In this document: positions 17,602-61,197 of the stretch, one piece after another
How the letters are laid out: every line of letters starts with the position of its first letter
Position numbering within the stretch: the first letter of the stretch is position 1
Assembly: GCA_023053545.1 (NCBI GenBank)
Contig: JAKZAN010000007.1
Coordinates: 10,044,001-10,108,000 of the forward strand
Reading direction: 5' to 3'
From: Lepidurus packardi
Taxonomy: Eukaryota > Arthropoda > Branchiopoda > Notostraca > Triopsidae
Length of the DNA stretch: 64,000 nucleotides
Program-made: the position numbers and the translations under genes
Notes under the pieces: generated by a model
Seen by the model: the letters and a program-made list of their open reading frames with translations, nothing else
Database searches by the model: none
Told to the model about the DNA's origin: nothing

Positions 17602-19608
17602 ATGAACGACTCGGATAAACAAATCATTAAAAACTGCCTCCCCCAGTTGGTCAGAACTGTCATCTTTGACGTGAGATTCCAGGACTTGCTCGTCACAAAA
17701 AAAGTCTTTTCGTCCCAAATGATGAAAGACATCAAAGTAAAACTTGCCTGAGACTCTTAGAAGCTTTTATTAGATATGACTATTTTCCTTTATTTTTATA
17801 GCGCAATCCAACTCCCCAGTTGGAACTTCTGATTTGTTTAATGAGAAGAGGACCCAACGATTTCCAAAACTTCTGCGAAGCGTTGAAAGAAACTTACCAA
17901 AACCGTTCGTTGCAAATCTTGGAAGATGCCAAAGGAAATGTACCGAGTCAGTCTCTGGTTGATCTTCCCCAGCATTACCATAACTGGCGTACGAGTTCAC
18001 CTGCCAATATGGAAACTTGCAATCCCAGGTCTTAATTTTTATCATAATTCAACTAAAATTCCTTAGAAAAATCCCTTGGCTTTATTCATAACTCCGATCA
18101 CCTTCGTTTCTTATGATTTTCTGCGTTTGCTCTTCACAGATCGTCTATTCCCAACGAAATTCCGGTTTCCAGATCGAATTCAAGCGCAGAGTAAGAACAA
18201 TAGGCTCAATTTACGTTAATTGGTTGCCTGTTAAATCATTTTCTTGAATCAATCAACAGGTCCAAAGTCTTGAATCCTCCTAATTATGAAACAGAGGCCC
18301 AAAGCAGTGAAACTCCGGAAATTGAACCCATGTCGGACTTGCCTGCTTTACCACTTGGTAATACTTTCCTTATTAACGTGAAATCAGCGAGTACTTTCAA
18401 AGGTGTTGGAGTTAAAGAGGTAATTCAGTTTTCTTACGTAAGTCCTTAATTGTCTTATTTTTTGTTCAAATGTTCACTTTTGCTTAAAGGTTTACCCGTG
18501 TGTTCTGGATGGATTACGGGGTTTGGCACTCATACTGAATTATAAAGTCGTTCCGAACCATGAAACCAGAGAAGGTTCAGAATTAGATGTTTTTCACTTG
18601 CAAGAACTGTTTAAACAACTCGGATATAAAGTGATGGCTCATTCCGATCTTAGTTACTCTGTAAGTTTTCTTTTGGCTTTATTGAATTCTCAATTTAACC
18701 ATTTAAGATTCTGCTTAGACCTTAATTCATCATTAGTTTTCTTTCAGTGTCATTCTTTATTTTATTGGACTTTTCGGCAAGGAAGCCTGTAATAAAGGAC
18801 TCTTGCCTTTTTAGGATACACTGCAAGTTGTACAAGACTTTCGTGACATGAAAGAGCATGCAAAGGCGGATTCGACCATTGTTGTTATAATGAGTCATGG
18901 AGAAGATGGTTCCGTAACTGAAGGAACCAGATTTCTGACATCCAACGGCAGCAGTATTGGCTCCGAAATTATTATAAACCATTTCAATAACCATGACTGC
19001 CCTAATCTGCTCGGAAAACCCAAAATTTTCCTCTTTCAGTTCTGTCGGTATTTGGAATACGCTAAAATGGGCATTGAACAATTTAGTTTTAAATCTTTTT
19101 ATATTTTAGAGGCAATCTGCGTGATGTTCCTCGTAATACACCAGTTGCTTCCCCATATCGGGTTGTCACAGATGGAGGGAAAGAAACTATCCCAGTGACG
19201 ACTGATGCGAGGCGATTTAGCGACATTCTAATCGCCAATTCCACCTTGCCAGGTTTGTTTATTTCTTTTAAGTATTTTTTGGCAAAGTTTAACGGATTTT
19301 TGGGCGATTTTGAAGGATTTGTAGCGTATCGAGAGCCTGAACAGGGGGCGTGGTTTGTACGGGCAATTTGCCTCATGTTCATGGAACACGCTCGGGATTA
19401 TCATGTCTACAAGTTACTTACTAAGGTAGTGGATTGACTTGTTAGGAATGTATTGCTAAAAAGAAAGAATGTTGGGTCTTTTTAGGTGGATCAATGTATG
19501 AAAGGGTGGACGGCGCATGAGAAGGGCAAGCAGACCGTAGAATGCACGCTCAGGGAGTTTCACAAGAAGTTCTTCTTCAACCCGGGCTTGGTTGGGGGTA
19601 CAAATTAA
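17602..19608 (+). CDS. CARD-containing initiator-type caspase, 456 aa
   Basis: Nine exons join in frame: 17602-17736, 17802-18028, 18140-18190, 18260-18437, 18490-18660, 18815-19047, 19110-19252, 19316-19425, 19486-19608. Residues 1-90 form a CARD-like helical domain, followed by an acidic linker, p20 from about residue 195, and p10. The catalytic His is about 282 (MSHGEDG) and the Cys about 331. The Cys motif QFCRG is completed only by splicing, since a phase-2 intron cuts the Arg codon. LRGLALILNY and AYREPEQGAWF carry the two Arg of the S1 pocket, and KKFFFNPG closes p10. Length and order match Dronc and caspase-2/9, which are activated on adaptor platforms to start apoptosis. It is the likely parent of the repeats downstream. 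Confidence 0.93.
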
Positions 19609-19848: not shown

Positions 19849-22800
19849 CAGGGCCGCCCAGAGGTTAGACGGGGCCCGGGGCGAACCTAAAATGGAGGCC
19901 CCCTTTTTTTTTTTTTTTTTTTTTAAATGCTGCGCCTATTGACCGCTTCTTTTATTGAGGCCCCTTTCGTGCACATACGAAACTGTAAAAAAAAAGTATT
20001 TAAAAAATTGAAAACCTTCTGTAATCTTGATTAAAATCAGACTTGTATATAGACAAAACCAAAGAAAAATTCGGAATACAGACTTTCTTGCTCTTCGCAT
20101 TGCAAACTCGTCAATTAAATTATCGTAATTAAGATTCCGAGCCAGGTTGTGTTCAACAGATAAAATCAGTAAATGATTTAGTCGTTCCTGGCCCATAGTG
20201 GAGCGCAAGTGGTTTTTTTACGAGGGACATCTTGCTGAAAGATCGCTCCGCAGACGCAACTGACACAGGCAAACAAAGAAACATACGCAACGATATACAA
20301 ATCTGAGGAAACAAGGTCTCTATAAGGAATGTTCATATATTTTGTTTAGCAGCTTCAAGGGAGAGCAAAGCTTTGACTGGAGAAAATTTTCACGAGTCTT
20401 GACAAAAAGTCGCATTTCTTCGACTAGATCTTCTTAACTTAAATCACGAGAATCAGCTTGAGCGAGACTTTTGGTTTTCCGATGTATTAAATCCATATTT
20501 GTGACTTCTTGGTCCCAAAGAAAAGAGAAGAGATCGCAAATGTTATTCGCTGCTTGAAAACGCTCTTTAATTTCCATTGATATTCTGTCTAAAGTGGCCA
20601 AAAAGACTTGTACTTTAAACTTGTCCTCCGCTGTTTCATGCAAGTGCTCCGTATTTTTCGGTTCACCATAAAAAGGCTTCCTTTTATGGAGTGCTTAGGT
20701 TTTTAGCTGGCTTTCCAAGCCCAACTGAGTAGCGACTAGTTTCGCTTCACTTACTAGTTGGTCCCAGTTCGTTCTCAATGTTTCGATGTCTTGAAGAAGG
20801 TTTCTGCATTCTCTAACTTCTCCTTCAATGCTAAGACTCGCTTTTTGTAGCAGCTTGTGCCTGTCATCGATGGCCTGCAGAGTCTTGTACCAAAATGTAC
20901 TCAAAAGGACGAAGTGAAAAGATGACATCCAATTATCAAGCGTATCTGCATCCGCGTGCGCTCCAGGCGGCAAATCCAGTTCTTGAAGAAGCTCAAGAGA
21001 TTTGAGGATTCCACGATAGTCCTTCAGCAAGGGCTTCACAGCGTCCATTCTGGCGCTCCAACGAGTATCTGAGAGGCTGTGCAGAGATACACTTGCGTTT
21101 TCTCGCAAAACTTTCCAGCGAGCTGGACTGCAGCTGAACCAGTTGTACAATTTTTGGATGTTGCCAAAGTAACTCTTAATTGCAAGGCATGCCTGGGCAG
21201 CATTCACACCACACAAATTCAAACTGTGGGCTCCACAAGGGGAATCAAGAGCGCACGAGTTCACTTTTAAAATTACTGCCTGTACACCCTTGTAGCAGCC
21301 CGACATGTTAGAAGCCTTATCGTATGCTTGGCCTCTGCAAAGCATGATTTCCGAATTGTTTTCCTTCAGAACTTGGAAAATCAGACCTGAAATGTCTTTC
21401 CCTTTCTTTTTTTCAAAATCTGCAAGTTTCAAAAATCTTTCGAAGACTTCCCAATTACTATCTGAACTCTGGTTGACAAAGCGAAAGAGGAATGTGACTT
21501 GTTCTGTGTGGGATGTATCTGGGGTGCTATCAGTAATAATGCTATAGTACTGAGCTTTAATAATTTCATCTACGACAGCCTTTCGAACAGAGTTACCACA
21601 AAGCTCGAGAAACTCATTCCGAGTTCTCCAGGAGAGATAGTGGGCCTGCATTCTTTCACCTCGCTGCTGGTATTTCACTACCTCATCCAGATGATACATC
21701 AGAGTCTGGTCATGTCTGCCAATGAGTTCTAAGACCCCGATCAAATTCCCGTTACCGTGCTCCCCGACATGAGAAGAAGAACCGCGAAAGACAAAAACAA
21801 AGCAACATCGAGACAGCATCTTAGAATTTCTCTCCATTTCTCGGATTCTTTGTTTACTTGCTTCACAACCTCCTTATCAATTCCTGTTGCCTTTTTGAAA
21901 GAAGTTAAACAGTCCTTCCATGCAAGATAAGCTTCAACGTGTGCAGCGGACTTTTCGTGATTCCTCAATTTTTCGTGAAGCTTATGCCAGTTCCCTCTAA
22001 CGCCAACTCCAAATTTGCACAGTGTTGAAGCGGATTCGGATTGCCGGTCACTTTGGAAAAGACAGCAAGAAAAACAAAATAGCCCTCCTACGCTGTCACT
22101 CCAAACTAACCAGTCTCGAGGTACTTTTACGCTGTTAGGCTGCTCCTTGTACAGTACAATCACTGGGATAGGCCGTCCACAAGAATCCCTCGGAAAAGCA
22201 GTGGGCATTGACGGAACCCCTTGTAGAACAATGAGGTCACGGTTCTTGACGATTTCTTCACGGGTTGTCCATGCGCCGGGATCACGTGCAGCTTCAGCTA
22301 GATGTTCTATATCATCGTCGTTCTCGACGCGTAATCCTGGTAAGTTGTCTTCCGGTTGCAAAGGTGAACTAGTAGTTTCTTCTACTGCTTCGCTTCCCTC
22401 ATCTTGAGCGGGTAATTCTGCTTCACCTATTTCGTAGGGGAGGATCTTGGCAACAAAGAGCTCTTCGGAATCTGTTCTTGGCTGAGGTAGCGCCTCATCT
22501 GATAGCAAAGTTAATTGAATAGGTACCATACATTTCGCACTAGGAATTGACAAATTTACCTTCATTCACTTGTTGAGCATTTTCGAACGAAATTTCTGTA
22601 GTAAGTGAATGTTCAACGATTTCGTTGCGACTGGAACTGGGCTGCGAAATCCAACCCAAGTCGATCAAAGTTAGTTTACCACGCTGGTCTGCAGAATCCC
22701 TATCCCGTTTAAGTTTTCTGTGTTGAGCACCAGACGGGTGATTTCTCTTCATTCTCATTAATTCTGAATAGTCAAGTGATAGATAGACTAAGCCATAAGC

Positions 22801-23113
22801 TAACCCAAACTCCATCAATTGCCTGATCTCTTAGGAGCTGCTGTCGTCTGTGGTGAGAATATTTTAGTTGTGCTCCCTATGGCCCGAAACCGTAACCTTG
22901 AAAACAGAGCGCGGTTTTTTACAGTTGTTCATAAGATTTTAGAGTGTGCGCCATACATCAAGATGGCGAGTTTCACAAGCTTTAAAAAGTGTTGAAAAAA
23001 ATTGAGCAGTTTTGTACAATATTTTTTAGCAGTATTTTGGTGTACAAAACATCCAAGTGGGGGCCCCCCAAGCAGCCGGGGCCCGGGACAAATCGCAAAT
23101 CTGGGCGGCCCTG
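19849..23113 (-). mobile_element. hAT transposon copy A with 8-bp target duplication
   Basis: The ends are inverted repeats beginning CAGGGCCGCCCAGA. The octamer TTGGTAAC stands directly outside both ends (19841-19848 and 23114-23121), a perfect 8-bp target-site duplication as hAT elements make. The transposase lies on the minus strand. A T-run follows the left end. The element is nearly identical to copy B at 34348-37627 and differs mainly by a 16-bp deletion. Confidence 0.93.
20695..22758 (-). pseudogene. hAT transposase (ZMYM/TTF-type), frameshifted
   Basis: The frame resembles animal ZMYM1-like hAT proteins. It has a KRNHPSGAQHRKLKR start region, then a TTF-type zinc-finger part (WLVWSDSVGGLFCFSCCLF), the DUF4371-like core with YSIITDSTPDTSHTEQ, and WSARMDAVKPLL. 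Near 21785-21800 a 16-bp deletion relative to copy B breaks the frame between VALFL and VFRGSSSH. The C-terminal hAT dimerisation part survives only in other frames beyond in-frame stops (20434-20643 and 19936-20208, with LRSTMGQERLNHL recognisable). These distal stops are shared with copy B, so the element was already dead before the segment was duplicated. Confidence 0.9.
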
Positions 23114-23914
23114 TTGGTAACTCCGCGTTGACTCATGGCGGCTGTTCCCTCCAAAGAACAACGAAAAATGCTTCTCAGAAAATCCCTGAAGCTAACCTTA
23201 TCTTATCAAAGTACGGTGACTTAGACGTAGAACAAGCTAGAGTTTGTAATTGCTATTGTTCTGATCCTAAGCTACAATTCGAATGTCTGTTTGCATCGTC
23301 AGCTTTTAGTATGACGTCACATGTCGGTTTTTCTCGTATGACGTCGCCGGTAACTTTTTGTATGGCGTCGCAGACGGCCTGCCCAGCTACGAGTGGGGTC
23401 TTATCGTTATCGCGTGAACTTCCAGCTCCAGATTTACACTGGCAAACATTTTTCGTTGCACATTTGGATGGAACAGCAGCCGCCATTAAGGCGTCGCCAA
23501 GTAGCACGTGGGTTACAATAGCTACATGTGAAATTTTAGTGGAAATAAAGTGTAACCAAATCGTTTTGTGCAGTACTGAAACTAGTGATCGTCTTCTGGA
23601 CTTTGCGAATAGACCGCTTAAGTTGACAAGCAAGATAATTCGCATAAACTGCTAAAGGAAGTGGACCGAGTCAGTCTCCGGTTGATCTTCCCCAGCATTA
23701 TCATAACCAGCCGACGAGTTCACCTGCCACTATGGCAACTTACAATCCCAGGTCTTAATTTTTATCATAATTCAGCTAAAATTCCTTAAAAATCCCTTGG
23801 ATTTATTCATAACTCCGATCACTTTCATTTATTATGATTTTCTGCGTTTGTTCTGCACAGATCGTCTATTCCCAACGAAATTCCGGTTGCCTGTTAAATA
23901 ATTTTCTTGAATAA
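23114..23914 (+). pseudogene. Remnant of caspase 5' exons plus an unidentified segment
   Basis: About 23122-23645 is an unidentified segment that matches 37636-38159 with no difference I could see; both strands hold long frames (130-217 codons) without family signatures. From about 23651 the sequence matches exon 2 of the CARD caspase (PSQSPVDLPQHYHN to its donor at 23752) and then exon 3. Exon 3 has lost its end and donor by a deletion between two GGTTG sites, fusing it to the next intron. The CARD exon itself is absent. The three-domain gene downstream therefore has no CARD from this side. Confidence 0.7.
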
Positions 23915-26900
23915 ATGAACAGGTCAAATGTCTTGAATCCTCCTGATTATGAAACAGATGCCCAAATAAGTGAAACTCCGGAAACTGAACCCATGTCGGA
24001 CTTGCCTGCTCCAACACGTGATAGTACTTTAACTATTAAAGTGAAATCAGCGAGTATTTTCAGAGGCGATGAAGTTGAAGGGGTAATTCAATCTTCTTAC
24101 TGAAGTCTAACTTCTGAGGTCCTTAATTGTCTTATTTTTGGTTCAAATGTTCACTTTTGCTTAAAGGTTTACCGGTGTGTTGCGGATGGATTACGGGGTT
24201 TGGCACTCATACTGAATTATAAACGCGTTCCGGACGGTAACAGAAGACTATGTTCAAAATCAGATGTTCCTCGCTTGCAAGAACTGTTTAAACAACTCGG
24301 TTATAAAGTGATCGCTCATTCCGACCTTAGTGAAGCTGTAAGTTTTCATTTGGCTTTATTGAATTCCCAATTTAACCATTTAAGATTCTGCTTAGATCTT
24401 TAACCTTTAGTTTTTTAGTTTTCTTTCCGTTTAATTCTTTATTTTTGTTCGACTTTTCGGCAAGGAAGCATGTAATAAAGGACTCTTGCCTTTTTAGGAA
24501 ACAATAAAAGTTGTAGAAGACTTTCGTGCCATGAAAGAGCATGCAAAGGCGGATTCGACCATTGTTATTATAACGAGTCATGGAAAAGTTTCCGAAACTG
24601 GAGAAACCACATTTCAGACATACGACAAGATCATTGGCTCCGAAAGTATTATAGATCATTTCAGTAACCGCAACTGCCCTAATCTGGTCGGAAAACCCAA
24701 AATTTTCCTCTTTCAGTTCTGTGGGTACTTGGAATAAACTAAAATGGTCATTGAACAATTTTACATTTTTTTTCTTTTTTTGAATATATTAGAGTCACTT
24801 TCAAAAATCGGGTTGTCACAGATGCAAGGAAAGAAACTATCCCAGTGCCGACTGATGAGAGGCGATTTAGCGACATTCTAATCGCCTATTCCACCTTGCC
24901 AGGTTCGTTTATTTCTTTTAAGTATTTTTTGGCGAAGTTTAAAGGATTTTTTGGCGATTTTGAAGATTTTGTAGCGTATGGAGAGTCTCATCAGTGTGCG
25001 TGGTTTGTATGGGCAATTTGCCATTTGTTCATGGAACACGCTCGGGATTCTCATGTCCAAGAGTTACTTACTAAGGTAGTGGATTGACTTGTTAGGAAGG
25101 TATTGCTAAAACGAAAGAATTTTGGGTCTTTTTAGGTGGACCAATGTATGAAACGGTGGACGGCGGCGCCTGAGATTGGCAAGCAGACCGTAGAATGCAA
25201 GCTCAGGGAGTTTCACAAGAAGTTCTTTTTCAACCCGGGCTTGGTTGGGCGTTCAAATTTAATAAATAGTAACGAACCCATACCGTCAGGCTTTCCTGCT
25301 TTACCAGCTGACAATACTTTTACTGTGGAAGTGAAACCTGCCAGTACTTTCAAAGGAGCTAATGAAGATAAAGAAGTAATTCAATTTCAGAAAATTCAGA
25401 AAACTTAATTTATAAAAGGATTTTTAAATCCTTATTTGTCTTATTTTTTGTTAAAATACTAACTTTTCTTTACAGATTTACAAGTGTGTTCTGTATAGAC
25501 CACGTGGTTATGCACTCATACTAAACTATAAGAAAATTGTGGGCCAGGAAGAAAGGATGGGTTCGGAATTAGATGTTTCCCACTTGCGAAACCTTTTTGA
25601 GCAACTCGGTTATGAAGTGATCGTTAATAGTGACTTGAATAAATCCGTAAGTTTCCTTTTGGCTTTAGCTAATCCCCAACTTAGCCACTTATTATTCAGC
25701 ATAGCCCTTAACCTTTAATTTTTGTAATTTAATTTCAGTTTAATTATGTACATTTTTGGAATTTTCGGCAAGGAAGCATCTAATAAAGGACTCTTGCCTT
25801 TTTAGGATACACTGCAAGTTGTACAAGACTTTCGTGACATGAAAGAGCATGCAAAGGCGGATTCGACCATTGTTGTTATAATGAGTCATGGAAAAGATGG
25901 TTCCGTAAGTGAAGGAACCAAAATTCTGACATCAGACGGCGACACCATTGGCTCCGAAATTATTATAAACTATTTCAATAACCATGACTGCCCTAATCTG
26001 CTCGGAAAACCCAAAATTTTCCTCTTTCAGTTCTGTCGGTATTTGGAATACGCTAAAATGGGCATTGAACAATTTAGTTTTAAATCTTTTTATATTTTAG
26101 AGGCAGTTGGCATGATGTTCCTCGTAATACACCAGTCGCTTCCACGGATGGGGTTGTCACAGATGAAGGGAACGTGACGACTGATGCGAGGCGATTTAGC
26201 GACATTCTAATCGCCAATTCCACGTTGCCAGGTTTATTTCTTTTAAGTATTTTTTTTAGCGAAGTTTAACGGATTTTTGGGCGATTTTGAAGGATTTGTA
26301 TCGTATCGAGAGACTGAACAGGGGACGTGGTTTGTACTGGCAATTTGCCTCATGTTCATGGAACACGCTCGGGATTCTCATGTCCAAGAGTTACTTACTA
26401 AGGTAGTGGATTGACTTGTTAGGAATGTATTGCTAAAAAGAAAGAATTTTGGGTCTTTTTAGGTGGATCAATGTATGAAAGGGTGGACGGCGCATGAGAA
26501 GGGCAAGCAGACCGTAGAATGCACGCTCAGGGAGTTTCACAAGAAGTTCTTCTTCAACCCGGGCTTGGTTGGGGGTACAAATTTAATAAATAGTATCGAA
26601 CCCATACCGTCAGGCACGCCTGCTTTACCAGCTGACAATACTTTTATTGTGAAAGTGAAACCTGCCAGTACTTTCAAAGGAGCTAATCGAGAAGAATTAG
26701 TAATTCACTTTCCGAAAATTCAGAAAACTTAATTTATAAAAGGATTTTTAAATCCTTATTTGTCTTATTTTTTGTTAAAATACTAACTTTTCTTTACAGA
26801 TTTACAAGTGTGTTCGGGATAGACCACGTGGTTATGCACTCATACTAAACTATGAGCATATTGTGGACGAGAAAACAAGAAAGGGTTCGGAATTAGATGT

Positions 26901-28017
26901 TTCAAACTTGCAAGAACTTTTTAAGCAACTCGGTTATGAAGTGATCTTTAAGCGTGACTTGAATCACTCCGTAAGTTTCCTTTTGGCTTTAGCTAATCCC
27001 CAACTTAGCCACTTATTATTCAGCATAGCCCTTAACCTTTAATTTTTGTAATTTAATTTCAGTTTAATTATGTACATTTTTGGAATTTTTGACAAGGAAA
27101 GATGTAATAAAATACTCTTGTCTTTTAGGACACTCGGAAAGCTGTACGAGAGTTTCGTGACAGGAAAGAACATGCACAGGCGGATTCGACCATTGTTGTT
27201 ATAATGAGTCATGGAGAAGATGGTTCCGTAAGTGAAAGAACCAAATTTCTGACAAAAGACGGCGGCACCATTATCTCCGAAACTATTATAGATGATTTCA
27301 ATAACCATAAGTGCCCTAATCTGAAAGGAAAACCAAAACTCTTCCTTTTCCAGTTCTGTCGGTATTAAGTTAAATGAACTTTAGAACAGTTTTGTTTTTG
27401 ATTTTAAAAAAAAAGTAGGGGTGATAATAAGGACGGTTCGCCAAATGGAACTTCCACAGATGGCCCGGGAGTACATGACCAAATGACAACTGATCAGATG
27501 CCATATGGGGACATAATAATCGCCAATTCCACCTTGCCAGGTTTTTCTTCTTGCTTTTAAGTATTTTTTGTGGACAAAGTTGAATGGATTTTGGTGTGGT
27601 TTTGAAGGATATGTAGCGTACCGACATCCTGGAAATGGCTCGTTGTTTATTCAGGTGATTTGTGAAACGTTTATGAAACACGCTCACGATAATCATTTGC
27701 GGCAGTTACTTGATAAGGTATAATGGATTCACTTGGTAGGAATTTATTGCTGAAAGAAAGATTTTTTGTAGGCGAATCGGCTTTTAAAACAGAGGTCGAT
27801 GGAAAATGGGGAGTTGAAGCAGACCTTCGAATGCACTGACAGGGCGTTTGAAAAAGATTTTTTTTTCAACCCAGGCTTGCATAGGGATAGGGGTATACGT
27901 ATACCCCTATCCCTATGCCTATGCCTATCCCTATGCCTATGCCTATCCCTATCCCCTACCCCTATCCCTATTTGGTGGACACGTCTACGGCACATTTGCC
28001 GCTATCCATGGTCCTGA
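23915..28017 (+). CDS. Tandem three-domain caspase, copy A (about 929 aa)
   Basis: Sixteen exons stay in frame: 23915-24082, 24167-24337, 24498-24724, 24793-24902, 24966-25075, 25136-25375, 25476-25646, 25806-26038, 26101-26231, 26293-26402, 26463-26699, 26800-26970, 27129-27361, 27419-27540, 27608-27717, 27772-28017. Three caspase units follow each other, with p20 from about residues 57, 343 and 637. His/Cys positions are 141/188, 427/476 and 721/770. Unit 1 ends QFCG and has YGESHQCAWF, losing both key Arg; units 2 and 3 have QFCRG. The exons that end p10 of units 1 and 2 continue into the next linker through a GTAATT donor. If that donor fails, a stop follows within 11 codons. There is no CARD. 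The start ATG is the first in frame and is inferred. The last exon runs into repeat sequence and ends with a low-complexity tail. Single-domain genes are the alternative reading. Confidence 0.75.
27880..27970 (+). repeat. 38-bp perfect palindrome and CCTATG microsatellite
   Basis: Bases 27880-27917 form a perfect palindrome centred on TATACGTATA. They run straight into tandem CCTATC and CCTATG hexamers up to about 27970. In copy B of the gene the same place has only a short GGGATGGGGGTAC, so this is new sequence in copy A and adds a Leu/Cys/Pro-rich tail to the predicted protein. Confidence 0.85.
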
Positions 28018-28530: not shown

Positions 28531-28661
28531 TGTTATATATACGAAGGGTAGTGAGGTGCACGAACTTTCTAGATGGAAGGCAGGAACTCAACTGAGTATT
28601 GTTGAGGTTGGTAACAAAAGTGCAACACCAGCTCCATCTGGTATACAGGCAATATATAACA
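28531..28661 (-). repeat. 3' LTR of the gypsy element
   Basis: 131 bp with TG...CA ends; it is the downstream LTR relative to the minus-strand coding frame. It differs from the other LTR at one base near 28619. Confidence 0.95.
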
Positions 28662-28763
28662 ATTTCCTCCCCCGTATAAAAAAAAAAAACCCTATTTTCT
28701 TTCTGCCAAAAACCCCATTTACCATATTCCCAATTTAACTACCAGTAACAAAACGAAAGAACA

Positions 28764-31700
28764 CTAATGATACACAAATTCTGATTGACGAGTGCTTTTC
28801 TTCACTCTTTGAGAACGTCGGAGTTCGATAGGCGGTTCCGGTGAACTGGAACAAGGTAATGGCACTACGGCAAGCGGCTTCTGAGGCGAGGGAAAGTTTT
28901 CTGAAGCTGCAGGTTGTACATCCTTCACAGGAACAGCGTCAAACGCCGACGATTGAACCGATGATTGAAACGGAGACAGGGCAACAGGCAATGGTGAAAG
29001 CCGAACTGGGCTAGATTCAGGTGGAGGTTCTTCCACAACCACCTCTTCCTTCTCCACTAATGGATCACTTCTTTTCATCTGGTCGAAATGGCGCTTAACT
29101 AACACTTCCCCCACTCGTACTTGATACAGATAAACGCCTAGGCGACGTGTTACCATGCCCTGTTGCCATTTCGGGAACCCCTTCCGGAAATCTCGTACGA
29201 GAACAGGGTCACCCACGGAATAACTACTTACAGTTTCGTTGTCCCTAGTCAGTTTAGTTGGAAGCACAAGATCTAATCGTGTTCTGGGTGCGTACCCAAG
29301 CATGACTTCCACAGGGCATTTTCCCGTGGTTGCATGAGGAGTAGTGCGGTAATTGAATAAAAATCGGGATAACTTCGTTTGGAGTGGTACGGTGTCTTGT
29401 CCGGCTTTTCCCAAGTAGGCTTTCACGGACTGAACAAAACGTTCGGCCAATCCATTGGTTTGTGGGTGGTACGGTGCCCCCATCAAATGTTTAATTCCAT
29501 TACGTGTCATGAATTTGGCCATCTCCCCCGACGTAAATTGAGGCCCGTTGTCCGTAACCACTTCCAAAGGTAGGCCAAAACGCGAGAATACGGAACGCAA
29601 GAAGCTAATCGTTCCTTCTGCCGTGGTGCTATTCATTACGAAAACTTCTGGCCACTTGGAGTAAGCATCAACTATAATGAGAAGCATTTTTTTTTCAATG
29701 GGTCCCGCAAAGTCAGCGTGAATGCGCTGCCATGGACCTTTTGGAAGAGGCCACGCAGCGTTTTTCACCTTGTTTGGAGATCGTGCCATCAATTTGCAAT
29801 TAGGGCAATCTCTTACAAAGGCAACAACATCTTTATCCATAGTAGGCCACCAAAACTTGCTGCGGGCTACAGATTTGGTGCGCGAAACGCCAGGGTGTCC
29901 TTCGTGAAGTAATTCCAGGATATCCCTCCTCAAGGATGACGGTACCACTACACGACGTCCCCAAAGAACGGCACCATTCTCCAAGGAAAGTTCAAATCGA
30001 CGCGTATGGTAAGGTATCAAGTTATCTGGAATTTTGCTGGATTTCCAACCATTTTTTACATAATCTTGAACTTGGCGTAGGATTGGATCCCCTTTCTGTT
30101 CTTGCAGTAACTTTTCAAACGTAAGAGGAAGACCATCAAGAATTTCGAGATTGCAGCAAGTTGCAATGGAAGAAGCAATATCAGTGCGTGTTTGAGGCAA
30201 AGGAGATCTGGAGAGCGCATCAGCATTGCCATTTTCTTCCGATCTACGAAACTCCATATTGTAAGAATAGGCAGCTAGCTTTAGCGCCCACCTCTGCATC
30301 CGGGCAGCTGCAATAGCGGAAATCCCGGACTTCGGACCCAAGATCGCAAGTAGAGGCTTATGGTCGGTGACTAGCGTAAAGTTTCTCCCGTACAAATAGT
30401 CATGAAACCGTGAAACTCCGAAAACAATGGCAAGAGCCTCTCGCTCAATTTGAGAATAGTTCCTCTCGGCTTTGGTCAGTGTTTTGGAGGCGTAAGCAAT
30501 GGGACGCTCGTCTCCGTTTGAAAAGCGGTGGGTCAAAACTGCAGCCACCCCCACCGATGAAGCATCGCACTCCAAACGCACTGGCAATTTAGGGTCATAA
30601 TGACAAAGGATTGGCTCAGAGCTGAGACATTTCTTAAGCCTCGTCCAGGCTTTCTCTTGAGTAGGTCCCCAATTGAACCTCGATCCTTGTCTTGTCAACG
30701 CTGTCAAGGGTTCTGCAAATGTAGACAAACCCTTAATGAATTTTCCGTAGTATTGGATAAGGCCAAGGAAAGAGCGAATTTCCTTAATATCCTTGGGTTT
30801 TGGAAAATCTCGAACCGCACGGACTTTAGCAGGATCTGTCTTCAATCCGTCGGCCGAAACGATGATTCCGAGAAAAGGCACTTCGGTCAAGCCAAATAAG
30901 CATTTCAGCCAATCCAATCTGACATTTGCATCCAGAAGCGTTTTAAGAACGGCTTCCTGCCTTTCTCTGTGTTCTTCTTTCGTACGACCTGCAATGAGAA
31001 TGTCGTCCAGGTAGCATTTAGCGAACGGAAAATCATGTAGTAATTCGTCCATAAATTTCTGAAACTTTGCTGGAGCAGAAGAAATGCCAAAAGGCAACCG
31101 ACTATACTGGTAAAGTCCCCACTGGGTATTAATAGTAGTCAGCGGTTGCGAATCTGGATCCAAGGCAAGTTGCAAATAGGCTTGCGACAAGTCCAGTTTG
31201 GTGAAATAAGCTCCCCCTTCTAGGGTAGCGAACAAGTCTGCAGGCTTAGGCAGTGGGTACTGGTCTATCAGTAATTCCGAGTTGACAGACATCTTGTAAT
31301 CCCCACATATACGTATACGACCATTTGGCTTTGGAACTACCACAATGGGCGCCACAATACCATCAGCTTCCAATCGCTCGATTTCCTTTTTTACAGGCTC
31401 GCGTAAAGCATAAGGCAAGGATCGTGGTCTATTAAATCGAGGAACAGCGAACGGTTTCAAATCCAAACTAACCACAGTAATTGGGGTAGAACGGATGTTC
31501 AGAGGTTCGAACAGCCGCGCGTACTTGGCCTTTAAACTTTCGGGAGATCCAATTGCATTTACCGGAACAGTAGATAATTTGTGAACTACTTGCCAATTTA
31601 AGTTGAATTGCTGCAAAAGGTCTCTCCCCAATAATGCAATACTTGGTCCATCCACGACAACCAAGGAAGCAGGCTTGGAGGTACCATGAATTGTAACAGG

Positions 31701-32798
31701 GACATGTACCTTGCCAAGTAATGGAACCTCTTCTCCGGTATAGGTTTCGACTCGAGAAGTCATTCGTTCCAGCTGAGGGCAGCCCAATTTCTTCCAACTA
31801 GCTTTGGGAATTAAGGAAACGGAGGATCCTGTGTCGATCTCCATGCAAACTGAATGACCATTGAGGAAAGCTTCGACTTTGTAAGGATTGACGTTACCCA
31901 ATCTGCATACCGATACCGAATTCAGTGAATGAACTCTATCCCCAGGATCGTCCGAGTCTGACTCCTCCAGCAGGAAGTGATTCTTCTCTTTTTTTCCATG
32001 TGGACCCTTCTGTGACTTGGCTCCAGAACTCTTCGACTCCATTGTAGATCCCACAGCTTCACTTCGGCAAACTCGTGCAAAATGCCCTTTCTGGTTACAG
32101 TTTTTACAATTTTGATTAACGGCAGGACAGTTTCGACTATTGGCCTTGTGCGATGGATCCCCACAACGAAAACAAAAACACTTCGATTCCGTCTTCTTCT
32201 TCTGCAGGGCGTTGACGGGTAAACTCGAAGAAATCTTTTGAGCTTGTATTTTAGCAGTCTCCTGTGACATGGCTATGTGAAATGCTTTTTCCAAGGTCAA
32301 TCCCGGTTCGGACAAAAGCTTGGCTTGAATACGATTTTCATGGAGGCCCAATACGAAAGCATCTCGTAACGCAGAATCAAGGAACCCACCAAAATTACAA
32401 TCCCGGGAAAGCATACGCAGATCCGCAAGAAATTCCTTAACTGGTTCATCCGGCATTTGTGTTCTTTTGTAAAACCGAAACCGCTCCGCAATTTCTATTG
32501 TCGTCTCCACAAAATGCGCGTTAAGAACGTCGCAGATTTCATCGAAAGTTTTGGTTGTCGGGTCTGCAGGCGAACATAACTGCCATAGTTTCTCACAGGC
32601 ATACTCCCCCACCAATGTGAAAAAGCACGCCCTCTTCTGCTCAATGTCCACGATTCCATTTGCCAGGAAGAATTGACGTAGCCGGCTAAAGTAGACCCTC
32701 CAACTGCTCCCTTTTGTAAAGGGTTCTATGCTACCCAAAACTCGACCAAAAACATTTACGGGAATCGCAGGTGAAGCAGTCGCGGTTGACATTGCCAT
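28764..32798 (-). CDS. Gag-Pol polyprotein of the gypsy element, 1344 aa
   Basis: One uninterrupted frame carries, in order: a gag region, two CCHC zinc knuckles (about residue 208 onward, CFRCGDPSHK and CKNCNQKGHF), an aspartic protease with DTGSS (about 321), reverse transcriptase with YLDD (about 596), RNase H with ECDASS (about 743), and integrase with an HHCC zinc region (from about 966) and D,D,E residues in HADFAGP, VTDNGPQF and AERFVQS (about 1028-1118). The order RT-RNase H-integrase is that of Ty3/gypsy. The frame is open further upstream to 32909 without an ATG, so I chose the ATG of MAMSTATAS. Gag and Pol share one frame with no visible shift site. Confidence 0.95.
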   Translation of the reverse strand: MAMSTATASPAIPVNVFGRVLGSIEPFTKGSSWRVYFSRLRQFFLANGIVDIEQKRACFFTLVGEYACEKLWQLCSPADPTTKTFDEICDVLNAHFVETTIEIAERFRFYKRTQMPDEPVKEFLADLRMLSRDCNFGGFLDSALRDAFVLGLHENRIQAKLLSEPGLTLEKAFHIAMSQETAKIQAQKISSSLPVNALQKKKTESKCFCFRCGDPSHKANSRNCPAVNQNCKNCNQKGHFARVCRSEAVGSTMESKSSGAKSQKGPHGKKEKNHFLLEESDSDDPGDRVHSLNSVSVCRLGNVNPYKVEAFLNGHSVCMEIDTGSSVSLIPKASWKKLGCPQLERMTSRVETYTGEEVPLLGKVHVPVTIHGTSKPASLVVVDGPSIALLGRDLLQQFNLNWQVVHKLSTVPVNAIGSPESLKAKYARLFEPLNIRSTPITVVSLDLKPFAVPRFNRPRSLPYALREPVKKEIERLEADGIVAPIVVVPKPNGRIRICGDYKMSVNSELLIDQYPLPKPADLFATLEGGAYFTKLDLSQAYLQLALDPDSQPLTTINTQWGLYQYSRLPFGISSAPAKFQKFMDELLHDFPFAKCYLDDILIAGRTKEEHRERQEAVLKTLLDANVRLDWLKCLFGLTEVPFLGIIVSADGLKTDPAKVRAVRDFPKPKDIKEIRSFLGLIQYYGKFIKGLSTFAEPLTALTRQGSRFNWGPTQEKAWTRLKKCLSSEPILCHYDPKLPVRLECDASSVGVAAVLTHRFSNGDERPIAYASKTLTKAERNYSQIEREALAIVFGVSRFHDYLYGRNFTLVTDHKPLLAILGPKSGISAIAAARMQRWALKLAAYSYNMEFRRSEENGNADALSRSPLPQTRTDIASSIATCCNLEILDGLPLTFEKLLQEQKGDPILRQVQDYVKNGWKSSKIPDNLIPYHTRRFELSLENGAVLWGRRVVVPSSLRRDILELLHEGHPGVSRTKSVARSKFWWPTMDKDVVAFVRDCPNCKLMARSPNKVKNAAWPLPKGPWQRIHADFAGPIEKKMLLIIVDAYSKWPEVFVMNSTTAEGTISFLRSVFSRFGLPLEVVTDNGPQFTSGEMAKFMTRNGIKHLMGAPYHPQTNGLAERFVQSVKAYLGKAGQDTVPLQTKLSRFLFNYRTTPHATTGKCPVEVMLGYAPRTRLDLVLPTKLTRDNETVSSYSVGDPVLVRDFRKGFPKWQQGMVTRRLGVYLYQVRVGEVLVKRHFDQMKRSDPLVEKEEVVVEEPPPESSPVRLSPLPVALSPFQSSVQSSAFDAVPVKDVQPAASENFPSPQKPLAVVPLPCSSSPEPPIELRRSQRVKKSTRQSEFVYH

Positions 32799-33069
32799 TT
32801 CGAATTGAAGCAAGAGAATGAACAACGTCAGTAGGAAATCCAGAATGAACCAGTTCGTAACATTCGTAGCACAACGGTGAAGCAAGATAGTTCCACAAGG
32901 CAGTAGCAAAAGGGAAGAATTTGGAAAGTATCAGACTTAATAATTGACTGAAAAGGCAGAACCAAATCCCGCATGCAATTTAACTGTATCTTCCAGTAAC
33001 AGTCACTATACACTACCCATTCGAGTACCAGAATTCTTTCACAAGTATCCCATCCTCGTCGCCAAAATT

Positions 33070-33200
33070 TGTTATATATACGAAGGGTAGTGAGGTGCAC
33101 GAACTTTCTAGATGGAAGGCAGGAACTCAACTGAGTATTGTTGAGGTTGGTAACAAAGGTGCAACACCAGCTCCATCTGGTATACAGGCAATATATAACA
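33070..33200 (-). repeat. 5' LTR of the gypsy element
   Basis: 131 bp, upstream LTR relative to the coding frame, followed on its minus-strand side by the presumed primer-binding site. ATCCC target duplication at 33201-33205. Confidence 0.95.
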
Positions 33201-33205
33201 ATCCC

Positions 33206-34347: not shown

Positions 34348-37300
34348 CAGGGCCGCCCAGAGGTTAGACGGGGCCCGGGGCGAACCAAAAATGGAGGCCC
34401 CCCTTTTTTTTTTTTTTTTTTTAAATGCTGCGCCTATTGACCGCTTCTTTTATTGAGGCCCCTTTCGTGCACATACGAAACTGTAAAAAAAAAGTATTTA
34501 AAAAATTGAAAACCTTCTGTAATCTTGATTAAAATCAGACTTGTATATAGACAAAACCAAAGAAAAATTCGGAATACAGACTTTCTTGCTCTTCGCATTG
34601 CAAACTCGTCAATTAAATTATCGTAATTAAGATTCCGAGCCAGGTTGTGTTCAACAGATAAAATCAGTAAATGATTTAGTCGTTCCTGGCCCATAGTGGA
34701 GCGCAAGTGGTTTTTTTACGAGGGACATCTTGCTGAAAGATCGCTCCGCAGACGCAACTGACACAGGCAAACAAAGAAACATACGCAACGATATACAAAT
34801 CTGAGGAAACAAGGTCTCTATAAGGAATGTTCATATATTTTGTTTAGCAGCTTCAAGGGAGAGCAAAGCTTTGACTGGAGAAAATTTTCACGAGTCTTGA
34901 CAAAAAGTCGCATTTCTTCGACTAGATCTTCTTAACTTAAATCACGAGAATCAGCTTGAGCGAGACTTTTGGTTTTCCGATGTATTAAATCCATATTTGT
35001 GACTTCTTGGTCCCAAAGAAAAGAGAAGAGATCGCAAATGTTATTCGCTGCTTGAAAACGCTCTTTAATTTCCATTGATATTCTGTCTAAAGTGGCCAAA
35101 AAGACTTGTACTTTAAACTTGTCCTCCGCTGTTTCATGCAAGTGCTCCGTATTTTTCGGTTCACCATAAAAAGGCTTCCTTTTATGGAGTGCTTAGGTTT
35201 TTAGCTGGCTTTCCAAGCCCAACTGAGTAGCGACTAGTTTCGCTTCACTTACTAGTTGGTCCCAGTTCGTTCTCAATGTTTCGATGTCTTGAAGAAGGTT
35301 TCTGCATTCTCTAACTTCTCCTTCAATGCTAAGACTCGCTTTTTGTAGCAGCTTGTGCCTGTCATCGATGGCCTGCAGAGTCTTGTACCAAAATGTACTC
35401 AAAAGGACGAAGTGAAAAGATGACATCCAATTATCAAGCGTATCTGCATCCGCGTGCGCTCCAGGCGGCAAATCCAGTTCTTGAAGAAGCTCAAGAGATT
35501 TGAGGATTCCACGATAGTCCTTCAGCAAGGGCTTCACAGCGTCCATTCTGGCGCTCCAACGAGTATCTGAGAGGCTGTGCAGAGATACACTTGCGTTTTC
35601 TCGCAAAACTTTCCAGCGAGCTGGACTGCAGCTGAACCAGTTGTACAATTTTTGGATGTTGCCAAAGTAACTCTTAATTGCAAGGCATGCCTGGGCAGCA
35701 TTCACACCACACAAATTCAAACTGTGGGCTCCACAAGGGGAATCAAGAGCGCACGAGTTCACTTTTAAAATTACTGCCTGTACACCCTTGTAGCAGCCCG
35801 ACATGTTAGAAGCCTTATCGTATGCTTGGCCTCTGCAAAGCATGATTTCCGAATTGTTTTCCTTCAGACCTTGGAAAATCAGACCTGAAATGTCTTTCCC
35901 TTTCTTTTTTTCAAAATCTGCAAGTTTCAAAAATCTTTCGAAGACTTCCCAATTACCATCTGAACTCTGGTTGACAAAGCGAAAGAGGAATGTGACTTGT
36001 TCTGCGTGGGATGTATCTGGGGTGCTACCAGCAATAGTGCTATAGTACTGAGCTTTAATAATTTCATCTACGACAGCCTTTCGAACAGAGTTACCACAAA
36101 GCTCGAGAAACTCATTCCGAGTTCTCCAGGAGAGATAGTGGGCCTGCATTCTTTCACCTCGCTGCTGGTATTTCACTACCTCATCCAGATGATACATCAG
36201 AGTCTGGTCATGTCTGCCAATGAGTTCTAAGACCCCGATCAAATTCCCGTTACCGTGCTCCCCGACATGAGAAGAAGAACCGCGAAAGACAAGATTCCTT
36301 CCCGCCAAAAACAAAGCAACATCGAGACAGCATCTTAGAATTTCTCTCCATTTCTCGGATTCTTTGTTTACTTGCTTCACAACCTCCTTATCAATTCCTG
36401 TTGCCTTTTTGAAAGAAGTTAAACAGTCCTTCCATGCAAGATAAGCTTCAACGTGTGCAGCGGACTTTTCGTGATTCCTCAATTTTTCGTGAAGCTTATG
36501 CCAGTTCCCTCTAACGCCAACTCCAAATTTGCACAGTGTTGAAGCGGATTCGGATTGCCGGTCACTTTGGAAAAGACAGCAAGAAAAACAAAATAGCCCT
36601 CCTACGCTGTCACTCCAAACTAACCAGTCTCGAGGTACTTTTACGCTGTTAGGCTGCTCCTTGTACAGTACAATCACTGGGATAGGCCGTCCACAAGAAT
36701 CCCTCGGAAAAGCAGTGGGCATTGACGGAACCCCTTGTAGAACAATGAGGTCACGGTTCTTGACGATTTCTTCACGGGTTGTCCATGCGCCGGGATCACG
36801 TGCAGCTTCAGCTAGATGTTCTATATCATCGTCGTTCTCGACGCGTAATCCTGGTAAGTTGTCTTCCGGTTGCAAAGGTGAACTAGTAGTTTCTTCTACT
36901 GCTTCGCTTCCCTCATCTTGAGCGGGTAATTCTGCTTCACCTATTTCGTAGGGGAGGATCTTGGCAACAAAGAGCTCTTCGGAATCTGTTCTTGGCTGAG
37001 GTAGCGCCTCATCTGATAGCAAAGTTAATTGAATAGGTACCATACATTTCGCACTAGGAATTGACAAATTTACCTTCATTCACTTGTTGAGCATTTTCGA
37101 ACGAAATTTCTGTAGTAAGTGAATGTTCAACGATTTCGTTGCGACTGGAACTGGGCTGCGAAATCCAACCCAAGTCGATCAAAGTTAGTTTACCACGCTG
37201 GTCTGCAGAATCCCTATCCCGTTTAAGTTTTCTGTGTTGAGCACCAGACGGGTGATTTCTCTTCATTCTCATTAATTCTGAATAGTCAAGTGATAGATAG

Positions 37301-37627
37301 ACTAAGCCATAAGCTAACCCAAACTCCATCAATTGCCTGATCTCTTAGGAGCTGCTGTCGTCTGTGGTGAGAATATTTTAGTTGTGCTCCCTATGGCCCG
37401 AAACCGTAACCTTGAAAACAGAGCGCGGTTTTTTACAGTTGTTCATAAGATTTTAGAGTGTGCGCCATACATCAAGATGGCGAGTTTCACAAGCTTTAAA
37501 AAGTGTTGAAAAAAATTGAGCAGTTTTGTACAATATTTTTTAGCAGTATTTTGGTGTACAAAACATCCAAGTGGGGGCCCCCCAAGCAGCCGGGGCCCGG
37601 GACAAATCGCAAATCTGGGCGGCCCTG
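34348..37627 (-). mobile_element. hAT transposon copy B, no target duplication
   Basis: Same element as copy A with the same ends. Its right flank is TTGGTAAC, identical to copy A, but its left flank is GGTACATG, so the 8-bp duplication is missing. The left flank equals the sequence at 43012-43019, the end of the duplicated segment. This copy therefore arose with the segmental duplication, not by an independent ordinary insertion. Confidence 0.93.
35193..37272 (-). pseudogene. hAT transposase, copy B, main frame open but C-terminus broken
   Basis: The main frame 35193-37079 (628 codons) is open and includes the region deleted in copy A (VALFLAGRNLVFRGS). An upstream frame with KRNHPSGAQHRKLKR could join it through a 61-bp intron at 37013-37073, giving QQVNE-DEALPQP. 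The frame ends at LESQLKT; beyond this stop the protein continues recognisably (HETAEDKFKVQVFLATLDRI at 34932-35141) but meets another stop and a frameshift before the dimerisation segment RSTMGQERLNHL (34434-34706). Without that segment hAT transposases are not expected to work. Confidence 0.88.
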
Positions 37628-38428: not shown

Positions 38429-41400
38429 ATGAACAGGTCAAATGTCTTGAATCCTCCTGATTATGAAACAGATGCCCAAATAAGTGAAACTCCGGAAACT
38501 GAACCCATGTCGGACTTGCCTGCTCCAACACGTGATAGTACAACAAGTACTTTAACTATTAAAGTGAAATCAGCGAGTATTTTCAGAGGCGATGGAGTTG
38601 AAGGGGTAATTCAATCTTCTTACTGAAGTCTAACTTCTGAGGTCCTTAATTGTCTTATTTTTGGTTCAAATGTTCACTTTTGCTTAAAGGTTTACCGGTG
38701 TGTTGCGGATGGATTACGGGGTTTGGCACTCATACTGAATTATAAACGCGTTCCGGACGGTAACAGAAGACTACGTTCAAAATCAGATGTTCCTCGCTTG
38801 CAAGAACTGTTTAAACAACTCGGTTATAAAGTGATCGCTCATTCCGACCTTAGTGAAGCTGTAAGTTTTCATTGGGCTTTATTGAATTCCCAATTTAACC
38901 ATTTAAGATTCTGCTTAGATCTTTAACCTTTAGTTTTTTAGTTTTCTTTCAGTTTAATTCTTTATTTTTGTTCGACTTTTCGGCAAGGAAGCATGTAATA
39001 AAGGACTCTTGCCTTTTTAGGAAACAATAAAAGTTGTAGAAGACTTTCGTGCCATGAAAGAGCATGCAAAGGCGGATTCGACCATTGTTATTATAACGAG
39101 TCATGGAAAAGTTTCCGAAACTGGAGAAACCACATTTCAGACATACGACACGATCATTGGCTCCGAAATTATTATAAATAAATTCAATAACCATGACTGC
39201 CCTAATCTGAAAGGAAAACCCAAAATTTTCCTCTTTCAGTTCTGTGGGTACTTGGAATAAACTAAAATGGTCATTGAACAATTTAACATTTTTTTTCTTT
39301 TTTTGAATATATTAGAGTCACTTCCCCAAATCGGGTTGTCACAGATGCAAGGAACGAAACTATCCCAGTGCCGACTGATGAGAGGCGATTTAGCGACATT
39401 CTAATCGCCTATTCCACCTTGCCAGGTTCGTTTATTTCTTTTAAGTATTTTTTGGCGAAGTTTAACGGATTTTTTGGCGATTTTGAAGATTTTGTAGCGT
39501 ATGGAGAGTCTCATCAGTGTGCGTGGTTTGTATGGGCAATTTGCCATTTGTTCATGGAACACGCTCGGGATTCTCATGTCCAAGAGTTACTTACTAAGGT
39601 AGTGGATTGACTTGTTAGGAAGGTATTGCTAAAACGAAAGAATTTTGTGTCTTTTTAGGTGGACCAATGTATGAAACGGTGGACGGCGGATGAGTTGGGC
39701 AAGCAGACCGTAGAATGCACGCTCATTGAGTTTCGCAAGAAGTTCTTCTTCAACCCGGGCTTGGTTGGGCGTTCAAATTTAATAAATAGTAACGAACCCA
39801 TACCGTCAGGCTTTCCTGCTTTACCAGCTGACAATACTTTTACTGTGGAAGTGAAACCTGCCAGTACTTTCAAAGGAGCTAATGAAGATAAAGAAGTAAT
39901 TCAATTTCAGAAAATTCAGAAAACTTAATTTATAAAAGGATTTTTAAATCCTTATTTGTCTTATTTTTTGTTAAAATACTAACTTTTCTTTACAGACTTA
40001 CAAGTGTGTTCGGGATAGACCACGTGGTTATGCACTCATACTAAACTATAACAAAATTGTGGGCCAGAAAGAAAGGATGGGTTCGGAATTAGATGTTTCC
40101 CACTTGCAAGATCTTTTTAAGCAACTCGGTTATGAAGTGATCGTTAAGTGTGACTTGAAAAACTCCGTAAGTTTCCTTTTGGCTTTAGCTAATCCCCAAC
40201 TTAGCCACTTATTATTCAGCATAGCCCTTAACCTTTAATTTTTGTAATTTAATTTCAGTTTAATTATGTACATTTTTGGAATTTTCGACAAGGAAAGATG
40301 TAATAAAATACTCTTGTCTTTTAGGACACTCGGAAAGCTGTACGAGAGTTTCGTGACAGGAAAGAACATGCACAGGCGGATTCGACCATTGTTGTTATAA
40401 TGAGTCATGGGGAAGATGCTTTCCTAAGTGAAGGAACCAAATTTCTGACATCAGACGGCTACAAAATTGGCTCCGAAACTATTATTGATTATTTCAATAA
40501 CCATGACTGCCCTAATCTGTTCGGAAAACCCAAAATTTTCCTCTTTCAGTTCTGTCGGTATTTGGAATACGCTAAAATGGGCATTGAACAATTTAGTTTT
40601 AAATCTTTTTATATTTTAGAGGCATTCGGCATGATGTTCCTCGTAATACACCAGTCGCTTCCCCGTATGGGGTTGTCACAGATGGAGGGAAAGTGACGAC
40701 TGATAAGAGGCGATTTAGCGACATTCTAATCGCCAATTCCACGTTGCCAGGTTTATTTCTTTTAAGTATTTTTTTTAGCGAAGTTTAACGGATTTTTGGG
40801 CGTTTTTGAAGGATTTGTAGCGTATCGAGAGCCTGAACAGGGGGCGTGGTTTGTACGGGCAATTTGCCTCATGTTCATGGAACACGCTCGGGATTACCAT
40901 GTCTACAAGTTACTTACTAAGGTAGTGGATTGACTTGTTAGGAATGTATTGCTAAAAAGAAAGAATTTTGGGTCTTTTTAGGTGGATCAATGTATGAAAG
41001 GGTGGACGGCGCATGAGAATAAGGGCAAGCAGACCGTAGAATGCACGCTCAGGGAGTTTCACAAGAAGTTCTTCTTCAACCCGGGCTTGGTTGGGGATTC
41101 AAATTTAATAAATAGTATCGAACCCATACTGTCAGGCACGCCTGCTTTACCAGCTGACAATACTTTTATTGTGAAAGTGAAACCTGCCAGTACTTTCAAA
41201 GGAGCTAATCGAGAAGAATTAGTAATTCACTTTCCGAAAATTCAGAAAACTTAATTTATAAAAGGATTTTTAAATCCTTATTTGTCTTATTTTTTGTTAA
41301 AATACTAACTTTTCTTTACAGATTTACAAGTGTGTTCGGGATAGACCACGTGGTTATGCACTCATACTAAACTATAACAAATTTGGGGGCCAGGAAGAAA

Positions 41401-42479
41401 GGATGGGTTCGGAACTAGATGTTTCCCACTTGCGAAACCTTTTTAATCAACTCGGTTATGAAGTGATCGTTAAGCGTGACTTGAATTACTCCGTAAGTTT
41501 CCTTTTGGCTTTAGCTAATCCCCAACTTAGCCACTTACTATTCAGCATAGCCCTTAACCTTTAATTTTTGTAATTTAATTTCAGTTTAATTATGTACATT
41601 TTTGGAATTTTCGGCAAGGAAGCATCTAATAAAGGACTCTTGCCTTTTTAGGATACACTGCAAGTTGTACGAGACTTTCGTGACATGAAAGAGCATGCAA
41701 AGGCGGATTCGACCATTGTTGTTATAATGAGTCATGGAATAGATGGTTCCGTAACTGGAGGAACCAGATTTCTGACATCCAACGGCAGCAGTATTGGTTC
41801 CGAAATTATTATAAACCATTTCAATAACCGTAACTGCCCTAATCTGAAAGGAAAACCAAAACTCTTCCTTTTCCAGTTCTGTCGGTATTAAGTTAAAATG
41901 AACTTTAGAACAGTTTTGTTTTCGATTTTTTTTTAAAAATAGGGGTGATAATGAGGACGTTTCGCCAAATGGAACTTCCACAGATGGCCCGGGAGTACAT
42001 GCCCAAATGACAACTGATGAGATGCCATGTGGGGACATAATAATCGCCAATTCCACGTTGCCAGGTTTTTCTTCTTGCTTTTAAGTATTTTTTGTGGACA
42101 AAGTTGAATGGATTCTGGTGTGCTTTTGAAGGATATGTAGCGTACCGAAGTACTGGACATGGCTCGTGGTTTATTCAGGTGATTTGTCAAACGTTTATGG
42201 AACACGCTCAGGATAATCATTTGCGGCAGTTACTTGATAAGGTATAATGGATTCACTTGGTAGGAATTTATTGCTGAAAGAAAGATTTTTTTGTAGGCGA
42301 ATCAGCTTTTAAAACAGTGGTCGATTCAAAATAGGAAGTTCAAGCAGACCTTCGAATACACTGTCAGGGCGTTTGAAAAAGATTTTTTTTTCAACCCAGG
42401 CTTGCATATAGGGATGGGGGTACAAATTAATTTGAGTGATTATGTGGGAAGCTTGAATTTTTGTAACGCCCCAATATAA
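38429..42479 (+). CDS. Tandem three-domain caspase, copy B (about 911 aa)
   Basis: Sixteen in-frame exons: 38429-38605, 38690-38860, 39021-39247, 39316-39425, 39489-39598, 39659-39895, 39996-40166, 40325-40557, 40620-40750, 40812-40921, 40982-41221, 41322-41492, 41652-41884, 41943-42064, 42132-42241, 42297-42479. His/Cys pairs fall at about residues 144/191, 429/478 and 724/773. Unit 1 again has QFCG and YGESHQCAWF. Unit 2 has SHGEDA and QFCRGIRHD; unit 3 has SHGIDG and QFCRGDNEDV. The last exon ends normally shortly after FFFNPG, without the insertion seen in copy A, and so shows the ancestral C-terminus. That 48 splice-dependent frames across both copies and the CARD gene stay open argues that these are genes rather than debris. 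Expression is not shown by sequence. Confidence 0.77.
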
Positions 42480-60886: not shown

Positions 60887-61197
60887 CTTCTGTAACTCCT
60901 TACTTTGCACTTTAGTTTCCAACGCAGAACAAATAACCTACCAAGTATTCCTTACTTGCAGTTGTGTGACTCTGTATCATTTATATAAATAATCCACACA
61001 AGGCATAGTTATCATATTTACTAGGTTAAAGAATCCAAGAAATCACTAAGCGTGCAGTTAAACTAATTTCTCGATCTTCAATACAATATTCTGCCGGTAG
61101 ATATGGTGTTTTTGATCTTTCTTAAAGAAACAGTAATAATTCCGTAATTTTATAAAGGATGGTAATTTTACTCCTTTTTACAGGATAGTTTTTTAAA
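60887..61197. other. Spacer between members 3 and 4
   Basis: About 310 bp; I see nothing coding. Exon 1 and most of exon 2 of the next member should lie here but are absent. Confidence 0.5.

Follow-up and report, generated by a model that had tools for sequence, protein, structure and literature searches.

Two neighbouring genes predicted to encode three caspase units in one chain in Lepidurus packardi

Introduction

Caspases normally carry one p20-p10 unit and act as dimers. Here we describe a 64,000-nucleotide stretch of the notostracan Lepidurus packardi (assembly GCA_023053545.1, contig JAKZAN010000007.1, positions 10,044,001 to 10,108,000 of the forward strand; hereafter the window, from whose first letter all positions are counted) in which two genes, tri1 (23915..28017) and tri2 (38429..42479), are each predicted to join three caspase units in a single chain. 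Multi-domain caspases are already known, and a three-unit chain is found in no description in the literature searched, from which subscription papers were mostly absent. An earlier note on tri1, made from the DNA letters, had known of no described caspase of this form; this holds for three units and fails for multi-domain caspases as such, given caspase-X and CASP16.

The closest described systems are summarized here from the covered passages of the papers cited. In the coral Acropora millepora, caspase-X (AmCaspase Xa-Xd) contains two caspase domains, of which the first is predicted to be inactive and the second active; HeLa cells survived less well with the whole protein, which was cytotoxic yet restrained by its inactive domain, and less well still with the active domain on its own (PMC4715348). 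One prediction from Acropora digitifera combines four caspase domains with a glycosyl-transferase domain (PMC4715348). In mammalian caspase-16, a second caspase-like domain that arose by exon duplication precedes the active one on its N-terminal side (PMC12198278), and for both caspase-X and CASP16 a pairing of the two domains was proposed (PMC4715348, PMC12198278). The pseudo-caspase FLIP(L) pairs with caspase-8 and sets its activity (PMC7586951). For Daphnia pulex eight caspases are listed, with no multi-domain form in the passages covered.

Like caspase-X, tri1 and tri2 have, as gene models, more than one caspase domain per chain. Caspase-X differs in its two domains and in an inactive domain without catalytic Cys and His, whereas the first unit of both tri genes has both residues and lost the p10 pocket Arg; the cnidarian and the notostracan genes presumably have independent origins. 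CASP16 has two domains, one with catalytic residues, whereas the tri genes have three units, two of them with all residues checked. FLIP(L) and caspase-8 may serve as a model of how units 1 and 2 would work together; they are, however, two proteins that meet via DEDs, and FLIP(L) lacks His and Cys, whereas each tri gene encodes one chain with neither DED nor CARD.

Two-domain architectures also occur among predicted arthropod proteins. The search for multi-caspase architectures that the earlier note had proposed returned two sizeable caspase domains in three of 76 public-protein relatives (P0001, P0004 and P0036, one domain of P0036 being partial) and three domains in none of the 76. Since domains were scored with a home-made profile partly trained on the same 76 proteins, and since the searches see only short-word-sharing relatives of set lengths, one of them scoring only the best 7998 word-sharing candidates, the absence of three-domain proteins weighs little. 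Both P0001 from Procambarus clarkii (603 aa) and P0004 from Ladona fulva (655 aa) are predicted gene models with two units each, at 33% and 27% identity to tri2, respectively.

Results

As the earlier note had read them, the sixteen exons of tri1 join in one frame; it covers 2790 nt on the plus strand (929 aa) with zero internal stops, 15 of 15 introns have GT-AG borders, and Pfam Peptidase_C14 matched at three stretches of the protein (E 1.6e-136). Exon borders of all caspase models were placed by homology and GT-AG dinucleotides, from DNA alone. At a distance of 14.5 kb lies tri2, an intact gene of the same build that was overlooked in the first reading; it is also on the plus strand, encodes 911 aa in exons that match the 16 of tri1, and has 15 of 15 GT-AG introns and three Peptidase_C14 matches (E 6.4e-137). 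Three caspase units in one chain are the best reading of the tri1 DNA, and tri2 strengthens it. Pfam found no CARD or DED in either protein at E 0.001. In tri1 the units occupy 24167..25255 (unit 1), 25476..26579 (unit 2) and 26800..27880 (unit 3), all on the plus strand. The caspase-domain part thus stops near 27880. Most of the final 45 or so codons, which end at 28017, come from a CCCTAT repeat (27905-27971) and the sequence that follows it; of the gene extent first proposed, 23915 to 28017, the open frame stands and the first exon is uncertain.

A single-unit CARD caspase gene lies upstream of tri1 (17602..19608, plus strand, 9 exons, 450 aa), with one caspase domain and a CARD scoring 26.4 bits against a cut-off of 23.9. 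Its best named relative is P0016 of Daphnia galeata, of the CARD caspase type (39% identity). This CARD caspase and those of the Daphnia type have a single unit, and share with the tri genes the caspase domain and the type of N-terminal linker strand.

Exons 6 (25136-25375) and 11 (26463-26699) of tri1 continue beyond FFFNPGL into a linker, after which a phase 0 splice leads to the following p20 exon, in agreement with the earlier note. Each joint is a single unbroken exon in which the end of p10 of one unit is followed by the N-terminal strand of its successor. The linkers are the 3' parts of these exons (25256..25375, contiguous with the p10 of unit 1, and 26580..26699), with counterparts in tri2 at 39776..39895 and 41102..41221, all on the plus strand. 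Where the CARD gene has ACAAATTAA and ends at a stop, the counterpart in unit 2 of tri1, ACAAATTTAATAAATAGT, reads through. The stretch before p20, for example TFTVEVKPASTFKG, resembles by eye the strand preceding the caspase domain in P0001, P0003 and P0016. Both inter-unit linkers contain PALPADNTF, as against PALPLGNTF in the CARD gene, which offers a candidate Asp cleavage site at the joint. All four linkers also contain AATAAA; polyadenylation there would produce a message without a stop codon.

Caspases with one unit are the rule in the family, and the three units might accordingly be separate tandem genes, or an assembly artefact, mistaken for one gene. We consider this very improbable. 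The translations of the linkers in both genes contain neither an in-frame Met nor a stop, and the sole ATG in the first linker of each gene is out of frame (25362 in tri1), so that the earlier note was right in finding no start codon between units; with every joint an unbroken exon free of in-frame starts and stops, tandem genes are disfavoured. The same build is found twice. An assembly duplication is disfavoured by units that lie 7-37% apart within a gene in every exon class and by exons that differ between tri1 and tri2, and the contig is 10.7 Mb long.

An alternative that concerns the joints themselves is frequent retention of introns 6 and 11, by which one- or two-unit caspases would be the main products and the three-unit form a minor one. 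Both introns have an in-frame TAA ten codons in (tri1, 25406-25408 and 26730-26732; tri2, 39926-39928 and 41252-41254); that at 25406-25408 lies within intron 6 (25376..25475, plus strand) and would be read only upon retention. At the donors of introns 6 and 11, position -1 is A (GAA|gt and TTA|gt) instead of the G of the CARD gene (GAG|gt), which makes retention possible. Against it, intron 6, which follows the linker, has as its homologue in the CARD gene intron 4, an intron that must be spliced out to make the CARD caspase, and this counts for the joined reading. Introns 6 and 11 are moreover the same in tri1 and tri2 (0/100 differences each), and retention would yield only unit 1, which is probably dead, or units 1 and 2, with unit 3 never produced. 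We regard retention as the main mode of expression as unlikely.

The three units are not equivalent in their catalytic residues. The CARD caspase was aligned to caspase-3, CED-3 and Dronc, and we take the p10 Arg of the S1 pocket to be R207 of caspase-3, the caspase-3 numbering and pocket roles being our assumption. The catalytic His and Cys (SHG and QxC), the first pocket Arg and the Gln before the Cys are present in 7 of 7 units. In unit 1 of tri1 and of tri2, QFCRG is replaced by QFCGV and the p10 pocket Arg by Gly, whereas QxCRG and the p10 Arg are intact in 4 of 4 units 2 and 3 as well as in the CARD caspase. Cys, His, Gln and the two pocket Args are all in place in units 2 and 3 of both genes; the pocket Trp is replaced by Leu in unit 3 of tri1. 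Because the p10 Arg and the Arg-Gly after the Cys are lost, unit 1 is a probable pseudo-caspase in both genes. The three-unit chain of the earlier note, which tri2 repeats, stands, but probably not as three equal working caspases.

Divergence between units separates two sequence types, alpha and beta. The CARD caspase and unit 1 are alpha, and the beta type is seen in the first p20 exon and on the p10 side of unit 3. Unit 2 is recombinant: it is beta, like unit 3, up to intron 1, while its second p20 exon and all that follows are alpha, like unit 1 and the CARD caspase. In unit 2 of tri1, 59 of 61 diagnostic sites ahead of the second p20 exon are beta, with 1 alpha and 1 neither, and 97 of 105 from there on are alpha, with 1 beta and 7 neither; in tri2 the figures are 60/61 beta and 98/105 alpha. 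A local origin is indicated by how close unit 1 is to the CARD caspase beside it. We suggest that an alpha-type caspase lost its stop and became fused in frame to the linker exon of a beta-type caspase, and that a beta and an alpha unit next recombined in a single unequal crossover, with the order alpha, beta/alpha, beta as the outcome. Fusion and a single crossover would explain both the unit order and the likeness of the two linkers, which differ at 12 of 120 sites (11.5 of the differences non-synonymous). In searches of the assembly (108.6 Mb, 344 contigs) the fused exon was full length at only four sites, all inside the window (8 matches, 4 partial).

The triple gene would afterwards have been duplicated along with a hAT-like element. 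The duplicated block 19849..27895 matches 34348-42422 at 97.1%, its left edge being the left end of this element. The two copies of the element, which we presume to be of the hAT type, lie at 19849-23113 (copy A) and 34348-37627 (copy B); their inverted ends begin CAGGGCCGCCC, and DUF4371 is found in copy B. Copy B has a single 628-aa open reading frame (ORF) on the minus strand (35196-37079), where copy A is 16 bases shorter and the frame is split. Copy A has an 8-bp flanking repeat, TTGGTAAC, and copy B has no left flanking repeat; the left flank of copy B matches the DNA right of tri2 (93.7% over 570 aligned bases), so that the joint of the duplication coincides with the end of the element.

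Between tri1 and tri2 the coding sequences differ more than the DNA around them. Non-synonymous divergence (dN) is 0.070 (138.5 changes over 2070 sites) and synonymous divergence (dS) 0.038 (21.5 over 579), the tails after the last NPGL and the alignment of the exon 16 tail (75 gap columns) being left out of the counts. Exons differ by about 6%, introns by 2.4% (31/1312 aligned bases) and the upstream DNA not at all (0/814). Over all exons, non-synonymous changes (N) exceed synonymous ones (S; one-sided p 0.005) and the introns (p 3.5e-9); synonymous changes compare with the introns at a two-sided p of 0.096. In the first p20 exon the N/S ratio is 2.7 for beta (p 0.037) and 3.1 for alpha (p 0.027), and for the unit 1 pair it is 2.4 (p 0.074). 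On the p10 side of unit 3 it reaches 5.7 (p 0.032), yet this does not exceed that unit's own introns (p 0.13). A test without exons 8 and 13 (p 6.6e-5) was picked post hoc and is not counted as evidence. In units 2 and 3 the second p20 exons look swapped between the two genes, so that conversion plays a part; for primate CASP1 and CASP5, gene conversion together with positive selection is described in the covered part of a preprint. With moderate confidence, we read these patterns as diversifying selection combined with shuffling of units.

The reading frames have been kept. Gaps among the five exon classes of the seven units measure 3, 12, 21 and 33 bases, those of the introns 1, 2, 4, 5, 6, 7, 8, 14 and 16; tri1 and tri2 themselves are separated, ahead of the tail, by exonic gaps of 9, 3 and 3 bases (exons 1, 6 and 11), and by single-base gaps in introns 7, 12, 13 and 15. 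Stops among the seven units number 0, as against about 13.7 expected had the at least 332 substitutions been placed randomly. These figures bear on another alternative, namely that the triple genes are by-products of unequal crossover, without promoter and CARD exons, silent or nearly so, and open merely because they are young. A relic of CARD-gene exons 2-3 does precede the triple genes (17927-18167 against 38164-38402, 91.3%), with a new ATG where a splice site was, and the hAT-like element lies upstream. The duplication is also very young, with 8 substitutions in 4082 aligned columns between the copies of the element and its flank, and pN/pS is near 1 for several pairs of units. The missing stops and the exon gaps in threes argue the other way, as do the excess of non-synonymous changes over both synonymous and intronic ones and the intact catalytic residues of units 2 and 3 in both genes. 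On balance such an origin as inert by-products seems improbable to us.

Other features of the window accompany the caspase genes. Directly upstream of each triple gene is a 219-aa ORF (22996-23655 and 37510-38169); 511 bases of this region (23140-23650) are identical in the two copies and had no other full-length match in the assembly search, and the second copy had no Pfam match. Between tri1 and tri2 is a stretch resembling an LTR retroelement (28531-33202), bounded by 133-bp direct repeats that are 99% alike (28531-28663 and 33070-33202). Four ORFs with a WPWG-GGR motif and the look of a tandem family (52574-53122, 56876-57424, 60287-60883 and 61189-61884) had no Pfam match at E 0.01. Outside the window, at 12936000-12953000 of contig C4, there is another caspase cluster of apparently four units about 2-4 kb apart (by tblastn only).

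Discussion

Taken together, the reading we favour, at somewhat better than even chances, is that each gene encodes a CARD-less chain of roughly 100 kDa containing three caspase units, which arose by fusion and crossover, has a regulatory first unit, is activated by cleavage and diversifies fast. Unit 1 would act in the manner of cFLIP, as a pseudo-caspase built into the chain that sets the activity of unit 2 by pairing with it. Unit 3 would remain available for pairing with another chain or with a unit that cleavage has released. Cleavage at Asp in the p20-p10 linkers and in those between units may release the active enzyme. The fast diversification of the units fits a role in immunity or conflict better than one in core apoptosis.

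Apart from the donor bases discussed above, several points weigh against this picture. Unit 1 still has the catalytic Cys and His and the first pocket Arg, so that its inactivity is a prediction. The start of tri1 is ambiguous, at ATG 23915 or at ATG 23732 with a splice to 23923; the latter would add a possible alternative first coding exon at 23732..23751 (plus strand), inside the CARD-gene relic and in frame when so spliced, and promoter and first exon are uncertain in tri1 and tri2 alike. The overall excess of non-synonymous changes is modest, and the tests treat sites as independent despite conversion and carry no correction for their number. On the alpha p10 side N/S is 1.4 and not significant (p 0.39), or 1.3 with unit 1 added (p 0.23); in the second p20 exon it is 0.83 (p 0.81), and the adjoining intron differs more (20/55). 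In most comparisons of distant units, pN/pS is close to 1 or lower. Finally, with so young a duplication, the intactness of two copies alone says little.

A more far-reaching, and in our view doubtful, proposal is that this is a modular locus at which units are swapped behind a pseudo-caspase first unit. The phase 0-0 exon block would let unequal crossover alter the number of units, and diversifying selection would then make of them a hypervariable protease of immunity or conflict.

For proteases that work as dimers, a chain of three units poses the question of which units pair in cis and what the role of the odd third may be. In caspase-X, in CASP16 and, by prediction, in the tri genes, an active domain is preceded by one that is inactive or looks disabled; should these have separate origins, a fused pseudo-caspase would be a repeated mode of caspase regulation. 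Exons that outpace their introns would make this arthropod cell-death protease a case of fast evolution under conflict. Should units indeed be swapped at this locus, it would be comparable to resistance-gene arrays, and individuals would be expected to differ in exon content and in their number of units.

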